From assembly GCA_947306425.1 (NCBI GenBank), contig CAMZGO010000009.1, positions 1-50,800 on the forward strand: DNA of 50,800 bases, read 5' to 3'. This document shows positions 7,741 through 50,800 of the stretch, piece by piece (the stretch's first letter is position 1; each line of letters opens with the position of its first letter). The stretch is from an uncultured Elusimicrobia bacterium (GTDB lineage Bacteria > Elusimicrobiota > Elusimicrobia > Elusimicrobiales > Elusimicrobiaceae). The notes beneath the pieces are model-generated. The model did not search any database. It saw nothing but the letters and a program-made list of their open reading frames with translations, and had not been told where the DNA came from. A program made the translations under genes and the position numbers.

Positions 7741-8487
7741 ATGAAAAAGATTGTTCTGCTCAGACACGGGCAAAGTTTATGGAATAAAGAAAATAAATTT
7801 ACAGGCTGGACTGATGTTATATTGACGCCGGAAGGTTTACAGGAAGCCAAAAAAGCCGCAATCTTGCTGCGCGAAAATAATTTTAATTTTGACTATTGTT
7901 TTACTTCTTATTTAAGCCGCGCTATTGATACTTTAAATATAGTCTTAAAAGGTTTAAACCAGGAATATTTACCGGTGGAAAAATCTTGGCGTTTAAATGA
8001 AAAGCATTACGGCGTTTTGCAAGGTTTAAATAAAGCGGAAACGGCTGAAAAATACGGAGCTAAGCAAGTGCAAATTTGGCGCAGAAGTTTTGACATAGCG
8101 CCAGCCCCGCTTGACGAAGAAGATCCGCGCAACCCCGCTTTAGACCCAATGTACAGAAAAATTCCCAAAGAATTATTACCTCGTACTGAATCCTTAAAAG
8201 ATGCTATTAACCGTGCTTTACCTTATTGGCAAGAAAATATTTTCCCTAAACTTAAAGATAATGATAATTTGCTTATAGTTGCGCATGGCAATTCTTTGCG
8301 CGGAATAATAAAACACCTAAAAAATATCAGTAACGACGATATTGTTAATTTAAATTTACCTACTGCAGTCCCTTATGTTTTTGAATTTGATGATAATTTG
8401 AAACTAGTTAAAGATTACTTTTTAGGCAATCAAGATGAAATAAAAAAACTAATGGCTGATATTGCCAACCAAGTAAGTAAAAAATAA
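7741..8487 (+). CDS. gpmA: 2,3-bisphosphoglycerate-dependent phosphoglycerate mutase
   Basis: It interconverts 3- and 2-phosphoglycerate in glycolysis via a phosphohistidine. At 248 residues it is the normal dPGM size. The phospho-acceptor is His9 in LLRHGQS, followed by the dPGM-typical [15 protein letters not shown]. The [12 protein letters not shown] segment and the second catalytic histidine in VAHGNSLRG near residue 181 are also present. The long dPGM insert ([28 protein letters not shown]) separates it from shorter histidine phosphatases. A GGGGGG stretch precedes the ATG. It ends at a repeat element that fills the gap to convergent pyrR. Confidence 0.95.
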
Positions 8488-8660
8488 AGCTAAACCAAAA
8501 ATGCAGCCCCGGCAAGTATTTGTGAGGAAATTTTAGTTTTCTCTGCGACGCAGAGTACCGCGAAGTAGAGGAGCGTAGCGACGTATCGGTACTTCAGGAG
8601 CGGAAAAACTAAAATTTACCAAAAAGACGCCGCCGGAAAAAAACAATAATTGCGAACTTC
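8481..8660 (-). repeat. Dispersed hairpin repeat, copy A (single unit)
   Basis: This element fills the whole interval between the gpmA and pyrR stop codons. A perfect 13-bp inverted repeat AAATTTTAGTTTT (8528-8540) / AAAACTAAAATTT (8605-8617) encloses a 7-bp inner stem AGTACCG (8554-8560) / CGGTACT (8587-8593). The apical segment AGGAGCGTAGCGA recurs in other copies. A small palindrome CTCTGCG-A-CGCAGAG precedes the inner stem. Flanks shared with the other copies are CCGGCAAGTATT on one side and GACGC plus the GCGAACTTC-stop junction on the other. Strand is given by orientation relative to the other copies. Confidence 0.8.
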
Positions 8661-9212
8661 TTATTTGTCTCTTTCTGATTGGCCGCCGATATTGTGAACT
8701 ATACAGTCATCACCGTCTTTCTCAATCAAATGAACGTGAATAATATCGTCATCAGCGGTAATAACTTCTTTACCGATATAATCTGCTTTAACAGGAATTT
8801 CGCGGTGTCCCCTGTCTACCATAACTAAAAGTTCAACTTTGCGCGGGCGGCCAAGGTCAGTTAAAGCATCTAATGCAGAACGGACTGTCCTGCCGGTATA
8901 TAATACATCATCAACAACAATTAAATTTTTATCTGTAATATCAAATCCGACGGATGACGGTTTAATTTGCGGGTCCTCGGCTACTTTTGAAAGGTCATCA
9001 CGATACCAAGTAATATCTAAAACACCGACGGGCAAAGTAATGCCGGCAAATTTTTTGATACGTTCCTGCAAGCGGTTTGCCAAATAAACACCGCGTGTTT
9101 TTACCCCTATTAAACATAAATCTGAAGTATCACTGTAATTTTCTAAAATTTGATGCGCCATACGGTCTAAAGACCTCAACATATCTACTTGATTTGCAAT
9201 TACTTTTTTCAT
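8661..9212 (-). CDS. pyrR: PyrR: pyrimidine regulator / uracil phosphoribosyltransferase
   Basis: A 183-residue type I phosphoribosyltransferase fold. The PRPP-binding motif VVDDVLYTGRTVRSAL is at about 99-114. The PyrR-typical hood (DITWYRDDL) and the C-terminal VDRGHREIPVKADYIGKE block are also present. PyrR proteins bind pyr mRNA leaders in response to UMP and usually also make UMP from uracil. No pyr biosynthetic genes or recognisable PyrR-binding loops lie in this window, so regulation of targets elsewhere is inferred. The ATG has AGGAG 7 nt upstream. Candidate -10 TATAAT boxes lie at 9227-9232 and 9241-9246, so it is probably transcribed separately from the pilus operon. Confidence 0.93.
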   Translation of the reverse strand: MKKVIANQVDMLRSLDRMAHQILENYSDTSDLCLIGVKTRGVYLANRLQERIKKFAGITLPVGVLDITWYRDDLSKVAEDPQIKPSSVGFDITDKNLIVVDDVLYTGRTVRSALDALTDLGRPRKVELLVMVDRGHREIPVKADYIGKEVITADDDIIHVHLIEKDGDDCIVHNIGGQSERDK

Positions 9213-28376: not shown

Positions 28377-28449
28377 AGCCGAGAATGGGGTTCGAACCCA
28401 CGACCTGCCGCTTACGAAGCGGCTGCTCTACCAGCTGAGCTATCTCGGC
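28377..28449 (-). tRNA. tRNA-Thr (CGT anticodon)
   Basis: On the minus strand, the acceptor arms GCCGAGA / TCTCGGC pair (28449-28443 with 28384-28378). The anticodon stem CCGCT/AGCGG-type arm encloses loop TTCGTAA with anticodon CGT at 28416-28414, reading ACG. The T arm contains GGTTCGAACCC. The discriminator is T (28377) and CCA is not encoded. Confidence 0.96.
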
Positions 28450-28457
28450 ATATTAAC

Positions 28458-28486
28458 ATTTTAGCAATTTTAAGGTTAATTGGCAA
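28458..28486 (-). promoter_or_regulatory. Promoter of tRNA-Thr (and probably the two ligase genes)
   Basis: Minus-strand -35 TTGCCA (28486-28481), a 17-bp spacer and -10 TAAAAT (28463-28458) lie 8 bp before the tRNA. No terminator is seen between the tRNA and the next start. Confidence 0.65.
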
Positions 28487-28550
28487 AGTGAAATAGGAAA
28501 TTTGCAGTTATTGTTTTTGCCGGTTAATCCTTTTTAGGAAATCTTGATTT

Positions 28551-29000
28551 TTACCTAAATACCGGGCGGGTTTTGAGTATATTTGTACGCTTGTTTTGTT
28601 CTTTTAGTTTTTCGGTTAATGCTTTTTTGTATTCTAAAACCAATTTGTTAGCGGGAGATATTTTTAAAATACTTTCACAATCTGCAAGCGCTTTTTTATC
28701 TTCTCCGATACTCACATAAAAACGCATTCTGCTCATATAATTTATAATATTGTTTTCATCTTTGTTTATTTTCTTTGTATAAAGTTCTTCTGCTTCTTTA
28801 ATTAAATTATTCCTTCTAAATATATTCATACGGTCATAGCAGAGGTAATTCTCACATCCTCTTTTATAATCTTTGACGGCTTTTTCATACTCTCCTATTT
28901 TTGAATATAAAATTGCTCTGCCTATATATAGTTCTCGTATATCAGGATATTTCTTGATTAGTTTATCAAATTCTTTTATTTCTTCTTGAATATTTTCCAT
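28551..29000 (-). CDS. Small TPR protein
   Basis: A 149-residue soluble protein, about four TPR-like units (ELYIGRAILYSKIGEYEKAVKDYKRG, YMSRMRFYVSIGEDKKALADCESILKISP). No signal peptide or enzyme motif. The start is the ATG at 29000 with a weak GGATAA site; it lies only 10 bp after a strong intrinsic terminator that ends an upstream structured RNA, so expression may depend on read-through. A decayed relative of its C-terminal half is at the right edge of the window. Function unknown. Confidence 0.7.
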   Translation of the reverse strand: MENIQEEIKEFDKLIKKYPDIRELYIGRAILYSKIGEYEKAVKDYKRGCENYLCYDRMNIFRRNNLIKEAEELYTKKINKDENNIINYMSRMRFYVSIGEDKKALADCESILKISPANKLVLEYKKALTEKLKEQNKRTNILKTRPVFR

Positions 29001-29010
29001 AATTTATCCA

Positions 29011-29060
29011 AATAAAAACGGCTGTTATACTATAGCTTGAAAATCATAGCATAACAGCCG
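29011..29060 (-). terminator. Strong intrinsic terminator upstream of the small TPR gene
   Basis: On the minus strand a 16-bp stem (29060-29044 region with 29035-29019, two G-U pairs) closed at its base by CGGCTG/CAGCCG runs directly into TTTTTATTT (29018-29011). The wobble pairs form only on the minus-strand RNA. Confidence 0.85.
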
Positions 29061-29255
29061 CTGTTTGCCGTCCGCAAGAACGGCAAACATTAAATACAAA
29101 ATACTCGGATAATTACTCCGCTTATTTTATACTTTTTAACGACTGTTTCTTAGGTTTTCAAGCTTTTTGCTTTCGCAAAAGACAATCCGTTAGGATTACC
29201 TAAAAAACGTTTAAATTTTATTAGGGCTTTTGACCCCGCATTAAAAACAACCTCT
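29011..29255 (-). ncRNA. Candidate structured RNA or attenuated leader
   Basis: About 245 nt on the minus strand between a promoter and a terminator, without an ORF. It has a junction stem of about 10 bp (29207-29198 with 29155-29146) enclosing two hairpins: AATCC/GGATT (29097-29084) and TTTTGC-GAAA-GCAAAA (29080-29065). A stem with an AG/AG-type internal loop follows (29128-29098), then a 9-bp stem GTTTGCCGT/ACGGCAAAC (29088-29063), then the terminator. The GNRA loop and G-U pairs occur only in minus-strand RNA. I could not match it to tmRNA, RNase P, SRP RNA or a known riboswitch. It may be a stand-alone RNA or the leader of the TPR gene. Confidence 0.5.
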
Positions 29256-29261
29256 AAATTT

Positions 29262-29291
29262 AGTATAGCATTTTTAATTTAACAAAACCAA
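29262..29291 (-). promoter_or_regulatory. Putative promoter of the structured RNA
   Basis: Minus-strand -35 TTGGTT (29291-29286), 18 bp and -10 TATACT (29267-29262). The -35 lies in the conserved tail (GGTTTGG) of the adjacent repeat copy. Confidence 0.45.
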
Positions 29292-29415
29292 ACCGTATAC
29301 AAACACCCGGCAAGTATTTTTGAGGAAATTTTAATTTTCTCCGCGACGCTCCAAGAGTGTAAAACGTAGCGCACGAGTATGTTTTCGCGCTGCGCAGCAG
29401 ATTTAAAATGATTTT
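29275..29415 (-). repeat. Dispersed hairpin repeat, copy B (second, degenerate unit)
   Basis: In minus orientation it begins near AAATCTGCTGCGCAGCG, carries GGAGAAAATTAAAATTTCC and the conserved tail CTCAAAAATACTTGCCGGGTG followed by GGTTTGG. One arm of the family's inverted repeat is decayed, so the long hairpin is not preserved. It matches copy E, including the AAATCTrCTG and TACTCG segments, and follows copy C head to tail. Confidence 0.65.
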
Positions 29416-29606
29416 TGATTTTTATTTAATAAGTTCAAACCATGCGCTATACCTGTCAAGTATTTTTAAAGAAATTTCAATTTTTACTTTGACGACGAAT
29501 ACCCAGAAGTATAGGAGCGTAGCGATTTTCGGTATTCTAGGAAATGAAAAATTGAAATTTATTAAAAAGACGCAGACAGCAAAGAATATTACTTGCAAAT
29601 TTCTTA
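29416..29606 (-). repeat. Dispersed hairpin repeat, copy C (first unit)
   Basis: A perfect 14-bp outer stem AAATTTCAATTTTT (29472-29485) / AAAAATTGAAATTT (29547-29560) and a 7-bp inner stem GAATACC (29497-29503) / GGTATTC (29531-29537) enclose apical AGGAGCGTAGCGA. Relative to copy A, both arms of both stems have changed in step, keeping the pairing. The element reaches the gatB stop codon with the same TTCTTA junction seen at pyrR. Confidence 0.75.
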
Positions 29607-31040
29607 TTATCCCTTAATTAAGCGGTTGAGTATCTTGTTCAGTAACGCCGGATTCGCCTTGCCCTTAGACGCCTTCATAACAGGCCCTACCAAAGCACCA
29701 ATGGCCTTTGCATTCCCTGCCTTAACTTCGGCAGCGGCTTTTGGGTTTGCGGCAATAGCGGCTTTAGCCCATTCTTCAAGTTGCGCTTCATCATTAACTT
29801 GGGCAGCGCCGGAACTTTCAAGCAATTTTTTAATGCTTTCTTTGGTGTCAAAGGCTTTGGCAAAAACTTCTTTTGCAATCTTTGAAGATATTTTGCCGCC
29901 CTCAATTTGCTTGATTAAAAAGGCCAAATCTTTTGCGGAAACAGGACTTTGCAAAATTTCCAAATTTGCGGCTTTTAGTTTTCCGGCTAAATCTGAAAAT
30001 ATCCAATTAACCGCCGCTTTTGCCTGTACGCCCTCTTTTAGTACAGTTTCAAAATAATCTTTTGTTGCACGCTCTTGCGTTACAAGGCCGGCATCATAAG
30101 CATTCAAAGCAAGCGTATCCATATAAACCTTTTTTTGTTCGTTCGGTAAAAGCGGCATTGTGTTTTTTACTTCCTCAATTTCCGCTTTGGTTACTTTTAA
30201 AGGCGGAAGGTCAGGCTCCGGGAAATATCTATATTCTTGTGCTGTTTCTTTAGAGCGCATTACAAGCGTTTGGCCTTTGGCATCATCCCAAAGCATTGTT
30301 TGCTGGAGGACTTTTCCCCCTTCGTTTAAAAGTTTTGTTTGACGTTCAATTTCATAAGTAAGCGCATCTTTGACAGCTTTAAAAGAGTTTAAATTCTTAA
30401 TTTCAATGCGCGTTCCGAACTTTTCCGTACCTGCAGGGCGTAGGGACAAATTAACATCCACACGCAACTCTCCCTTTTCCATATCACAATTTGAAATATC
30501 AAGCCAAGACATCATTTTTTTAAGGTTGGTTAAATAATTGTATGCCTCTTGCGGGGAGCGCATATCAGGTTCAGAAACTATTTCCAACAAAGGCACACCG
30601 GAGCGGTTGAAATCAATTAAAGAACAGTCCCCACCGTGCATACTTTTACCGGCATCTTCTTCCAAATGCGCACGAGTTATGCCGATTTTTTTGGTATTTC
30701 CGGCTTTATCTTCTACCTCAATATATCCTTGTGAAATTATGGGGTGTAAATCTTGTGAAATTTGATAGCCTTTCGGTAGATCCGGATAGAAATAATTTTT
30801 GCGCGCAAAAACTGAAATCTCATTAATATTTGCTTTCAAGGCAAGCCCCGCTTTTATTGCAAGTTTTACTGCCTCTTTATTCAAAGTGGGTAAAACCCCA
30901 AGCTGCCCTGTACAAAGAGGGCAAATATTAGTATTTGGGGTGCTGCCGGCAGCATTTTTACAACTGCAAAACATTTTGCTGGCGGTATTTAATTGCAAAT
31001 GTATTTCAAGCCCGATAACCGGTTCAAATTTCTGTTCCAT
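29607..31040 (-). CDS. gatB: Asp-tRNA(Asn)/Glu-tRNA(Gln) amidotransferase subunit B
   Basis: GatB activates the side chain of misacylated Glu-tRNA(Gln) or Asp-tRNA(Asn), which is amidated with ammonia from GatA. The 477-residue protein is standard length: catalytic cradle with VIGLEIHLQLNTASKMFC, the zinc site CSCKNAA..NICPLC, the signature FARKNYFYPDLPKGYQISQ, and ITRAHLEEDAGKSMH. The C-terminal helical and YqeY-like tail ends LLNKILNRLIKG. gatA and gatC are not in the window. With asnS present, the main job is probably Gln-tRNA formation. No ribosome-binding site is visible; a -10 box lies 7 nt before the ATG, suggesting a leaderless message. Confidence 0.96.
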   Translation of the reverse strand: MEQKFEPVIGLEIHLQLNTASKMFCSCKNAAGSTPNTNICPLCTGQLGVLPTLNKEAVKLAIKAGLALKANINEISVFARKNYFYPDLPKGYQISQDLHPIISQGYIEVEDKAGNTKKIGITRAHLEEDAGKSMHGGDCSLIDFNRSGVPLLEIVSEPDMRSPQEAYNYLTNLKKMMSWLDISNCDMEKGELRVDVNLSLRPAGTEKFGTRIEIKNLNSFKAVKDALTYEIERQTKLLNEGGKVLQQTMLWDDAKGQTLVMRSKETAQEYRYFPEPDLPPLKVTKAEIEEVKNTMPLLPNEQKKVYMDTLALNAYDAGLVTQERATKDYFETVLKEGVQAKAAVNWIFSDLAGKLKAANLEILQSPVSAKDLAFLIKQIEGGKISSKIAKEVFAKAFDTKESIKKLLESSGAAQVNDEAQLEEWAKAAIAANPKAAAEVKAGNAKAIGALVGPVMKASKGKANPALLNKILNRLIKG

Positions 31041-49178: not shown

Positions 49179-50231
49179 TTAAAATTGCTCCAAAATTCTA
49201 ATATCGTTTTCATAAAAAGCACGGATGTCTTTTATGTTTAAACTAAACATTGCCAAACGCTCAACACCCATACCAAAAGCATAACCGCTGTAAATTTCCG
49301 GGTCAATGCCGCAATTTTTTAAGACATTTGGATGAACAACACCGGCCCCTAACATTTCTTTCCAACCGCTGCCGCGGCAGACAGGGCAGTTAGCATCTTT
49401 ACCTTCACAAAACACACATTTGACATCAACTTCAACACTCGGTTCAGTAAACGGGAAGAAAGATGAGCGGAAACGCACTTCCGCTTTTTGCCCAAAAAGA
49501 CCGCGCATAAAAACAGTTAAATCGCGCTTTAAATCGGCAAGTGAAACATTTTTGTCCACATACAGCCCCTCAATTTGGTTAAAGACGGGGTAATGTGTTG
49601 CGTCAATAGCATCTTTTCTGAACACTCTGCCGGGCGCCATAATACGAATTGGCGGTTTTTGTTTTTGCATAGTGCGGATTTGTACCCCTGAAGTATGCGT
49701 TCTTAAAACAAAATCTTTGCGTGTGGTATTTTTGATAAAAAATGTATCCTGCATATCGCGTGCCGGATGATTTTTGGGAATATTTAAAGCATCAAAATTA
49801 TGCAATTCATCTTCTATGAGAGGCCCTTCCGCCCAAACAAAACCAAGGCGTGATAAAATGTCCGTCATTCTTTTTTGCGCTATGGCAAGAGGGTGCCTTT
49901 TGCCTTGATTAAAAGGAAAAGCGGGCAAAGTTAAATCAATTTTTGTTTGGTTTAAATTTTCATTGATTTCTTTTAAAGAAATTTCGGCAAGTTTTGCTTC
50001 AAAAGCAGAAGTTAAAGATTGTTTTAAAGCATTACTTTTAGGGCCGAATAACTTTTTTTCTTCTAAAGAAAGGTCCTTTAAGTTTTTAAGGAGTTCCGTT
50101 AAAACGCCCTTTCTGCCAAGGGCGGAAATTTGCAAATCCTGCAATTCTTTAGTATTTTGGCAGGTTTGCAATTTTGAAGTATATAGTGTTTCAATTTCTG
50201 AAAGTTTTGTAAGTAGTTCGTTAATCGTCAT
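49179..50231 (-). CDS. pheS: Phenylalanyl-tRNA synthetase alpha subunit
   Basis: The 350-residue catalytic subunit. An N-terminal helical arm (about 1-85) is followed by the class II core: HPLAIAQKRMTDILSRLGF, TFFIKNTTRKDFVLRTHTSGVQIRTM, PGRVFRKDAIDATHYPVFNQIEGLYVD, FFPFTEPSVEVDV and motif 3 GYAFGMGVERLAM. The four cysteines in CVFCEGKDANCPVCRGSGW are normal for this family. It is the first gene of the 11-gene chain. No Shine-Dalgarno is visible, and a TATAAT box ends 8 nt before the ATG, so the message may be leaderless. Confidence 0.97.
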   Translation of the reverse strand: MTINELLTKLSEIETLYTSKLQTCQNTKELQDLQISALGRKGVLTELLKNLKDLSLEEKKLFGPKSNALKQSLTSAFEAKLAEISLKEINENLNQTKIDLTLPAFPFNQGKRHPLAIAQKRMTDILSRLGFVWAEGPLIEDELHNFDALNIPKNHPARDMQDTFFIKNTTRKDFVLRTHTSGVQIRTMQKQKPPIRIMAPGRVFRKDAIDATHYPVFNQIEGLYVDKNVSLADLKRDLTVFMRGLFGQKAEVRFRSSFFPFTEPSVEVDVKCVFCEGKDANCPVCRGSGWKEMLGAGVVHPNVLKNCGIDPEIYSGYAFGMGVERLAMFSLNIKDIRAFYENDIRILEQF

Positions 50232-50245: not shown

Positions 50246-50269
50246 CAACATTACGCGCGCGTGTGGAAG

Positions 50270-50465
50270 AATAGGAAATCTACAGTTTTAGTTTGTGTGC
50301 CGTCAAAGCCTTTTTGGTAAATTTTAGTTTTTATTCTCCTGGAGTACCGCAAACTCGCTATGCTCGTTTTACTTCTTGGTACACGTCGTCAAATAAAAAC
50401 TAAAATTTTCTCAAAAATACTTGTCGGGTGCGAGTGTACGGTTTGGCTTTATGTCGCAGAGAAAA
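50270..50465 (+). repeat. Dispersed hairpin repeat, copy D (first unit)
   Basis: This copy lies in the opposite orientation to A and C. A perfect 17-bp inverted repeat begins AAATTTTAGTTTTTATT (50319-50335) and pairs with 50392-50408. Inside it are GTACC/GGTAC and a diverged apical CTCGCTATGCTCG. The conserved tail CTCAAAAATACTTGTCGGGTG and GGTTTGGCTTTAT follow. Confidence 0.75.
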
Positions 50466-50588
50466 TAAAAATTCCATTAAATCTACTGTGCGATACGCCT
50501 ACGTACTCGCGCGCTGACTTTCAAAAGATAAAATTTTTCTTTAAAAAACTTTCCGGATGTGCTTAATAGGTTTGGCTTTGTTTTATGG
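50466..50588 (+). repeat. Dispersed hairpin repeat, copy E (second, degenerate unit)
   Basis: It follows copy D head to tail and matches copy B: AAATCTACTGTGCG, TACTCGCGCGCT, then AAAATTTTTCTTTAAAAAACTTTCCGG and the tail GGTTTGGCTTTGTTTTATGG. It stops at the stop codon of the TPR remnant on the other strand. The D-E pair repeats the C-B arrangement. Confidence 0.6.
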
Positions 50589-50762
50589 TTAATCAAATTT
50601 TCCGGTTAATATTTTTTTGAGAGTTAAAGCAGTTTCATTTTTTGGAGAAAGTTTTAATACCGTTTGGCAATCAATTATGGCTTTTTCTATTTCCCTAATA
50701 CGCATAAAAAAATAAATTCTGCTGATATATGATATAATTTTGAATATTTGGCCTAATGGTCA
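50589..50762 (-). pseudogene. Decayed 3' end of a small TPR gene
   Basis: Minus-strand frame from an in-frame TGA (50762-50760) to TAA (50591-50589) encodes about 56 residues (ISYISRIYFFMRIREIEKA, then AIIDCQTVLKLSPKNETALTLKKILTGKF) alignable with the C-terminal half of the TPR protein at 28551-29000 (INYMSRMRFYVSIGEDKKA, then ALADCESILKISPANKLVLEYKKALTEKL). Upstream of the TGA, none of the three frames to 50800 continues the match, so the 5' part is lost or scrambled. The first ATG inside would give only 38 residues. The window ends at 50800. Confidence 0.6.
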
Positions 50763-50800
50763 AAAATGTTGCTAATACCGTATCAAAAATGATGGAATGT

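Follow-up and report, generated by a model that had tools for sequence, protein, structure and literature searches.

The window, a stretch of 50,800 nucleotides from an uncultured member of the Elusimicrobiaceae, constitutes contig C9 of a genome of 1.437 Mb that is 99% complete (G000). It holds three complete copies of a hairpin element, approximately 170-190 nt long and sited between genes, together with several half-elements. An earlier note had described these copies, A, C and D, and their long stems; all three are present with the stems it described, and the stretch it delimited, 8481-8660, matches copy A. Copy A lies between two convergent genes, copy C at one end of a block of inserted sequence referred to as L097, and copy D upstream of the gene for the alpha subunit of Phe-tRNA synthetase. 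The features are as follows:

8486-8655, + strand: copy A, a complete type-1 element (core 8519-8627; ends approximate)
8519-8627, + strand: conserved core of copy A, with P1 of 13 bp, P2 of 5 bp, an internal loop, P3 and an apical part
ending at 8487, and 8661-9212 (- strand): the convergent neighbors of copy A, one for a histidine phosphatase (read as gpm) and one for a phosphoribosyltransferase (read as pyrR)
28472-29606, unstranded: the L097 block, 1135 nt, between a tRNA gene (28377-28449, - strand) and gatB (29607-31040, - strand)
28489-28549, - strand: right half-element, inverted, immediately after the stop codon of the TPR gene
28551-29000, - strand: gene for a TPR-repeat protein of 149 aa, within the L097 block
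28992-29291, - strand: structured leader before the TPR gene, ending in a terminator-like hairpin
29276-29340, + strand: lone type-1 left half followed by GCGACG (left half only)
29361-29424, + strand: lone type-2 left half
29424-29612, + strand: copy C, a complete type-1 element (core 29463-29570)
49179-50231, - strand: Phe-tRNA synthetase alpha gene, downstream of copy D
50266-50457, - strand: copy D, a complete type-1 element (core 50309-50417)
50459-50586, - strand: a type-2 left half (50459-50516) and a type-1 left half (50523-50586), stacked on copy D
50595-50800, - strand: 3' end of a gene similar to the TPR-like cassette genes (start approximate; the contig end cuts the gene), whose predicted C-terminus resembles that of the gene at locus L098

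The core of the element is a nested hairpin of 110 alignment columns, comprising an A/T-rich P1 (13 bp), P2 (5 bp), an asymmetric internal loop, P3 (GTACC/GGTAC, extended), a weakly pairing P4, and a tip of the form GA-RC-GNA-GY-GA. GNA triloops are unusually stable in single-stranded DNA. The internal loop reads GACGAC/YAGGA in most copies of the window's clade (GACGCA in copy A), and differs in G017 and in the long-core copies of a genus here called g2, which also has a short form of the core with a reduced tip. This single core occurs in several outer contexts, giving mosaic outer arms: type 1 (GCCAAACC..CCGGCAAGTATTTTTGAGG / ACCAAAAAGACGCCGCCGG), type 2 (GCGCGCGAG..GCAGATTTAAGATG / GCACTTAAATGTGCAAGC), and a third with a C-rich left context.

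These copies had been taken by the earlier note for members of a dispersed intergenic family, and further copies proved plentiful, both in the same genome and in its relatives. A covariance model built from 19 copies returned 40 rows in G000 at a threshold of E<=1, which resolve into 25 distinct places and 15 opposite-strand echoes; 21 of the places are strong (>93 bits) and four are weak (32-46 bits). A blastn search of the same genome with copy A gave 26 places, some of which are half-elements. Copy A alone (8500-8645) folds better than dinucleotide shuffles of itself (z -3.4), with 2 of 200 shuffles equaling it. In loci reaching 1.5 kb or to the contig end around the 21 strong copies, we counted 20 extra left halves, at 14 of the copies, and a single extra right half, which is inverted. 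Seven of the 20 lone left halves terminate within the GACGAC motif and the other 13 elsewhere; lone right halves occur at other places in the genome. At 1500-1600 of locus L049, beside two very similar pilin-like genes, lies a type-2 element that has no core, its left arm running straight into its right arm.

Across genomes, 19 of 60 match, all of them among the 36 from the same family and none among the 24 from the sister family; under stricter filters, 22 of 149 genomes of the order match, all in one family. Nine genomes (G000, G002, G003, G004, G011, G017, G020, G023 and G025) are rich in the element, with 19-62 rows each, counts that include opposite-strand echoes and come from draft assemblies of 10 to 180 contigs, in which repeats at contig ends may mislead. 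No rows were found in G001, G005, G008 and G012, which share a genus with carriers; copy number is all or little. Carriage by phage or plasmid was rejected: a blastn search with copy A matched nothing in INPHARED or PLSDB, and two exact patterns gave one match in IMG/VR, which reads as chance in coding sequence and is not found by the model.

The earlier note had also seen both arms of the stems change together, and had taken this to suggest that selection, or a need in spreading, maintains the fold. The many copies and their largely compensated stem changes support this, in tests on 19 copies, on 108 rows, and of arm against arm. MAFFT aligned the 19 copies with no structural information; in that alignment standard pairs fill 91.1% of pair cells, compared with 79.3% on average after shuffling and only 40.2-52.5% after sliding one side by 1-3 columns, and both sides have changed in 16 of 31 pairs. 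The set from nine genomes (108 rows, 104 of them distinct, including four antisense echoes) was aligned by fitting to the covariance model and thus leans toward it; here 93.0% of cells are paired against 77.5% after shuffling, and 22 of 30 pairs show both-side changes. Uncompensated changes are the minority in this larger set, though 207 of its 2900 cells are unpaired, and helix 3 (P4) is the weakest at 73.7%. Across 85 distinct copies, the left arm has 92.3% identity with its own right arm and 70.6% with the right arms of other copies (permuted maximum 73.3%), and in 65 of the copies no other right arm outdoes the own partner. In genus g2, outer arms of approximately 30 bp around the shortened core match within a copy and differ among copies, the own-arm score beating that of every other copy in 18 of 27 copies found by regular expression, some of which are probably false finds.

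The mismatches that are tolerated indicate which strand folds. In 100 distinct sense rows, left after the four antisense rows were dropped, there are 99 G·U and 11 A·C cells, as against 246 and 153 in column shuffles. The rows are, however, related to one another, a single P3 pair contributes about a quarter of the G·U cells (27 in a per-pair table that includes the four antisense rows), and strand-biased mutation may contribute to the excess. G·U outnumbers A·C in seven of seven genome groups, most weakly in G011 (7 to 5). A duplex cruciform, or passive correction of one arm by the other, should give approximately equal numbers of the two, so what is kept is the fold of the sense strand: the fold of one strand, as RNA or single-stranded DNA, more than a DNA palindrome. 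Within each clade the stems are rewritten while the loops are largely kept. These data bear directly on whether the palindrome might be maintained without selection, by template switching (quasipalindrome correction) and ectopic conversion that copy arm onto arm. Such upkeep could account for arms that match inside a copy and differ widely between copies, the outer arms of genus g2 included, and for the exchange of variants at shared sites. However, arm copying should erase the loops, yet the unpaired GACGAC/YAGGA and GA..GA segments are nearly constant in the window's clade and in G020 while the stems vary, and it should treat G·U and A·C alike, whereas the former exceeds the latter nine to one. 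Passive upkeep is thus already disfavored, and we regard it as improbable.

To compare occupied and empty sites, 21 flank pieces, representing one weak copy and 20 of the 21 strong copies (the remaining strong copy lies on the short contig C20), were set against G002 and G011, and sites were called from the match list, from nhmmer and the model on 30 fetched loci, and from nine further stretches. The element is present at five of the 21 tested sites in G002 and at six of the 21 in G011, and at one occupied site in a relative it is inverted. A weak match of 36.8 bits in G011, 0.75 kb from the L103 flank, is a doubtful further site; in G002 a copy lies on the far side of a gene, 0.7 kb away from the flank of L092. 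The fetched G002 stretches for L057, L075, L092 and L093, and those of G011 for L083, L084, L087, L092, L093 and L098, hold no element at the site. At the site that copy A occupies in the window, a terminator-like hairpin (by eye) takes the place of the element in G002, and G004 carries a pilin-like gene; beside pyrR in G003 and G011 there is likewise a terminator-like hairpin, with no element in the stretches inspected. Copy A and L085 are insertions of the element only, the latter standing alone between genes read by eye as atpC and deoB, which are approximately 10 nt apart in G011. Shared sites hold differing variants of the element across species, even differing types, and in the alignments inspected its right ends fall just before the apparent promoter of the next gene. 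Neither inserted elements nor inserted blocks show a convincing target-site duplication: L098 has one overlap of 9 nt, which may be promoter similarity, and none is evident at L097.

Four other insertions are blocks of gene plus hairpin, 897-1467 nt long where a relative has at most 44 nt. Each ends in the hairpin, three of the four carry an attenuator-like leader, and the gene is pilin-like, TPR-like or other. The L097 block of the window, comprising the inverted right half, the TPR gene, its leader, two left halves and copy C, is replaced by only 44 nt in both G002 and G011. The L098 block (897 nt: leader, TPR-like gene, element) corresponds to nothing in G002. At L088 the block of approximately 1.47 kb contains an HTH-like gene (by eye), a leader, a pilin-like gene and the element; G011 has 39 nt there, and G002 a 995-nt gap of other sequence. 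The block at L101, approximately 1.2 kb, includes a lipoprotein-like gene (by eye), and the two relatives have 35 and 20 nt.

The association with particular genes extends to other copies. Five of the 21 strong copies (L075, L083, L088, L092 and L095) have an arm array that starts no more than 25 nt from the stop codon of a pilin-like gene; in three more (L084, L087 and L098) the gene is TPR-like, an assignment based on resemblance of C-termini. The 1.44-Mb G000 has 108 matches to PF07963, the type IV pilin N-methylation motif, within a range of 12 to 112 across the 22 family members searched. The proposition that hairpin number tracks the number of pilin-like genes was rejected across genomes (PF07963 matches and hairpin rows are 112 and 2 in G009, 18 and 38 in G017, and 30 and 62 in G020), and the association may therefore partly reflect shared permissive sites. 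A census of 128 sites in nine genomes, based on ORFs from a simple script, with two G020 elements counted twice and some possibly false sites found by regular expression, placed 47 in tandem gaps co-oriented with both neighbors, 15 antisense in tandem gaps, 24 in convergent gaps, 23 in divergent gaps and 19 at contig edges. In G020, which belongs to another genus, L171, L175 and L191 stop 11-14 nt short of a start codon, and the interval contains a stretch like GAAGGA or GGAAG; L058, L179 and L183 adjoin apparent tRNA genes (by eye).

This arrangement relative to genes bears on the main rival explanation, that the hairpin is a cis-acting RNA element, transcribed in 3' or 5' UTRs, which protects, processes or attenuates mRNA and spreads by host benefit and recombination. 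Its sense strand is co-oriented with both neighbors 47 to 15 in tandem gaps, G·U is tolerated and A·C is not, L085 is presumably co-transcribed given how closely its flanking genes lie in G011, the three G020 copies stop just short of start codons, and copy A occupies the site of a terminator-like hairpin in G002. Against an RNA role of this kind stand the patchy presence inside one genus, the lack of the element at most of the tested sites in close relatives, and the 15 antisense tandem copies and 23 copies in divergent gaps. At several sites, moreover, a distinct terminator-like hairpin is retained next to the element (by eye), for which reason a plain intrinsic terminator was also rejected. 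The strand and orientation data fit an RNA element and a mobile element alike, but the patchy, polymorphic distribution fits mobility better, and we therefore favor the latter; the RNA element retains a smaller, though appreciable, chance of being correct.

Candidate mobilizing enzymes were sought in the element-rich genomes. Insertion sequences of the IS200/IS605 type are recognized as folded single strands. Y1 (PF01797) or RAYT transposases were rejected as the mobilizer, being absent from seven of the nine element-rich genomes (G000, G002, G003, G011, G017, G020 and G025); G004 and G023 have one Y1 match each. Reverse transcriptase (PF00078) was rejected as well: among seven element-rich genomes searched it is present in G000, G002 and G011 and missing from G003, G004, G017 and G020, two of these four being only 76-80% complete. 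Tyrosine recombinases show no enrichment, with two in G020 and 2-4 in element-free genomes. Of the six tyrosine recombinase matches, five were scanned with the integron integrase model TIGR02249 (the sixth is a fragment), and their best score is 132.8 bits, below the cut-off of 265; a dedicated tyrosine recombinase or IntI is not supported. None of these searches brought up a parental transposon or IS for the element.

The same searches address the proposal of an integron-like system with dispersed gene cassettes, for which the hairpin would be the single-strand recombination site, of attC type. The consensus of the attC end boxes is RYYYAAC and GTTRRRY. Such boxes flank none of the 21 copies within 90 nt and no single cassette platform was seen, which, with the sub-threshold integrase scores, counts against the proposal. 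It would otherwise fit a single gene followed by a 3' hairpin, structure kept over sequence, a strand bias, and insertion as one block, and attC sites are likewise described as recognized by a strand-specific fold (PMC2727003). The Elusimicrobiaceae element thus resembles attC in form, and differs in having neither IntI nor R boxes; an integron-like system in this sense seems to us very improbable.

We consider it rather probable, at roughly 60%, that the hairpins are mobile palindromic elements of a new family, small, non-coding and in kind comparable to REP/BIME, bcr1 or MITE repeats, whose single-strand fold would be recognized by a putative enzyme and which often stand at the 3' end of mobile gene blocks. 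The sense strand folds into a long hairpin whose shape is kept more than the letters of its stems, and the putative enzyme would act on this folded strand, the substrate being either an RNA copy or DNA that becomes single-stranded during replication or transcription. The enzyme may sometimes cut near the GACGAC loop, and at permissive sites, downstream of a stop codon and ahead of the promoter that follows, an incoming unit may take the place of an older one's core and right arm. Several findings speak against a mobile element: no mobilizing enzyme was identified among Y1 transposases, reverse transcriptases and tyrosine recombinases, target-site duplications are unconvincing, only seven of the 20 lone left halves end in GACGAC, the internal loop is not constant (long-core copies of genus g2; G017), and the approximately 3:1 bias of sense orientation along transcription in tandem gaps also fits an RNA role. 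A more specific and rather doubtful version is a dispersed cassette system, integron-like but lacking IntI, that uses the hairpin for strand-specific recombination. Its units, each comprising an attenuator leader RNA, a single pilin-like or TPR gene and the hairpin, would pass from one intergenic site to another, docking at the GACGAC loop of a hairpin already in place, with left halves remaining as scars. Were it true, such a system would let the Elusimicrobiaceae shuffle large pilin-like repertoires, such as that of G000.

Small palindromic repeats are common in bacteria, and it is seldom clear whether their fold matters and on which strand. Here, approximately a hundred copies from nine genomes combine rewritten stems, largely kept loops, a single-strand signature, and sites with and without the element, and the finding points to a putative enzyme that recognizes strands by their fold; the association with mobile gene blocks offers a handle on how pilin-like genes are dispersed in the Elusimicrobiaceae. 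The earlier note did not recognize the family, and contains nothing on mosaic outer arms, strand asymmetry, empty sites in relatives or an association with inserted gene blocks. No Rfam family matches the hairpin (the window yields two tRNAs only, and copy A alone one match at E 2, below the gathering score), and our literature searches on Elusimicrobiota listed no description of such a hairpin family. The element fits several known families in part, and is a member of none beyond the loose class of MITEs, being short, non-coding and repeated with polymorphic insertions. The bcr1-bcr18 repeats of the Bacillus cereus group are described as intergenic, MITE-like, often transcribed in UTRs or operons, and in some families conserved in secondary structure (PMC3446304). 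The present element shares the intergenic, MITE-like character and the conserved structure, and is set apart by description, through its taxon, mosaic arms, stacked left halves and gene-block ends.

REP, BIME and REPIN sequences are also palindromic and intergenic, with tens of copies near the 3' ends of ORFs, and the account that describes them includes CGTC families that likewise lack an associated transposase and REPs within longer palindromes (PMC3733652). They are there given as 20-40 bp long with short stems and tetranucleotide tags, whereas the element has nested stems and internal loops over some 170-190 nt; by inspection it is no 20-40 bp hairpin with a terminal GTAG or CGTC tag, and RAYT, the partner of some REPs, is missing from most of its element-rich genomes. 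ERIC, RUP, Correia/NEMIS and other small bacterial MITEs, described as A+T-rich, 100-200 bp long and forming a long RNA hairpin (PMC2229807), are alike in size, composition and hairpin, and the present element differs in having no established target-site duplication or parental IS. Elements of the IS200/IS605 type, for which hairpin recognition on one strand is described (PMC6006769), differ by their Y1 transposase, absent from the window's genome and six further element-rich genomes.

Two observations concern the sequences ahead of the pilin-like and TPR-like genes. A leader of approximately 300 nt precedes genes of both kinds (28992-29291, - strand, in the window; 741-1074 of L098; 2253-2587, - strand, of L088) and matches loci of seven other genomes. 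It ends with CGGCTGTTAT..ATAACAGCCGTTTTT, a terminator-like hairpin ahead of the ORF. RNAalifold on 14 MAFFT-aligned sequences gave 39 pairs, 29 of them with both-side changes that keep the pair, and the best Rfam match has an E of 0.6, all matches being below the gathering score. Judged from its sequence, the leader is a candidate for a new attenuator or riboswitch of pilin cassettes. At L049, L112, L047 and L003, promoter-like stretches of pilin-like genes have a poly-T tract between TTGAC-like and TATAAT-like boxes; a poly-T tract between promoter boxes is an arrangement known from phase-variable promoters.
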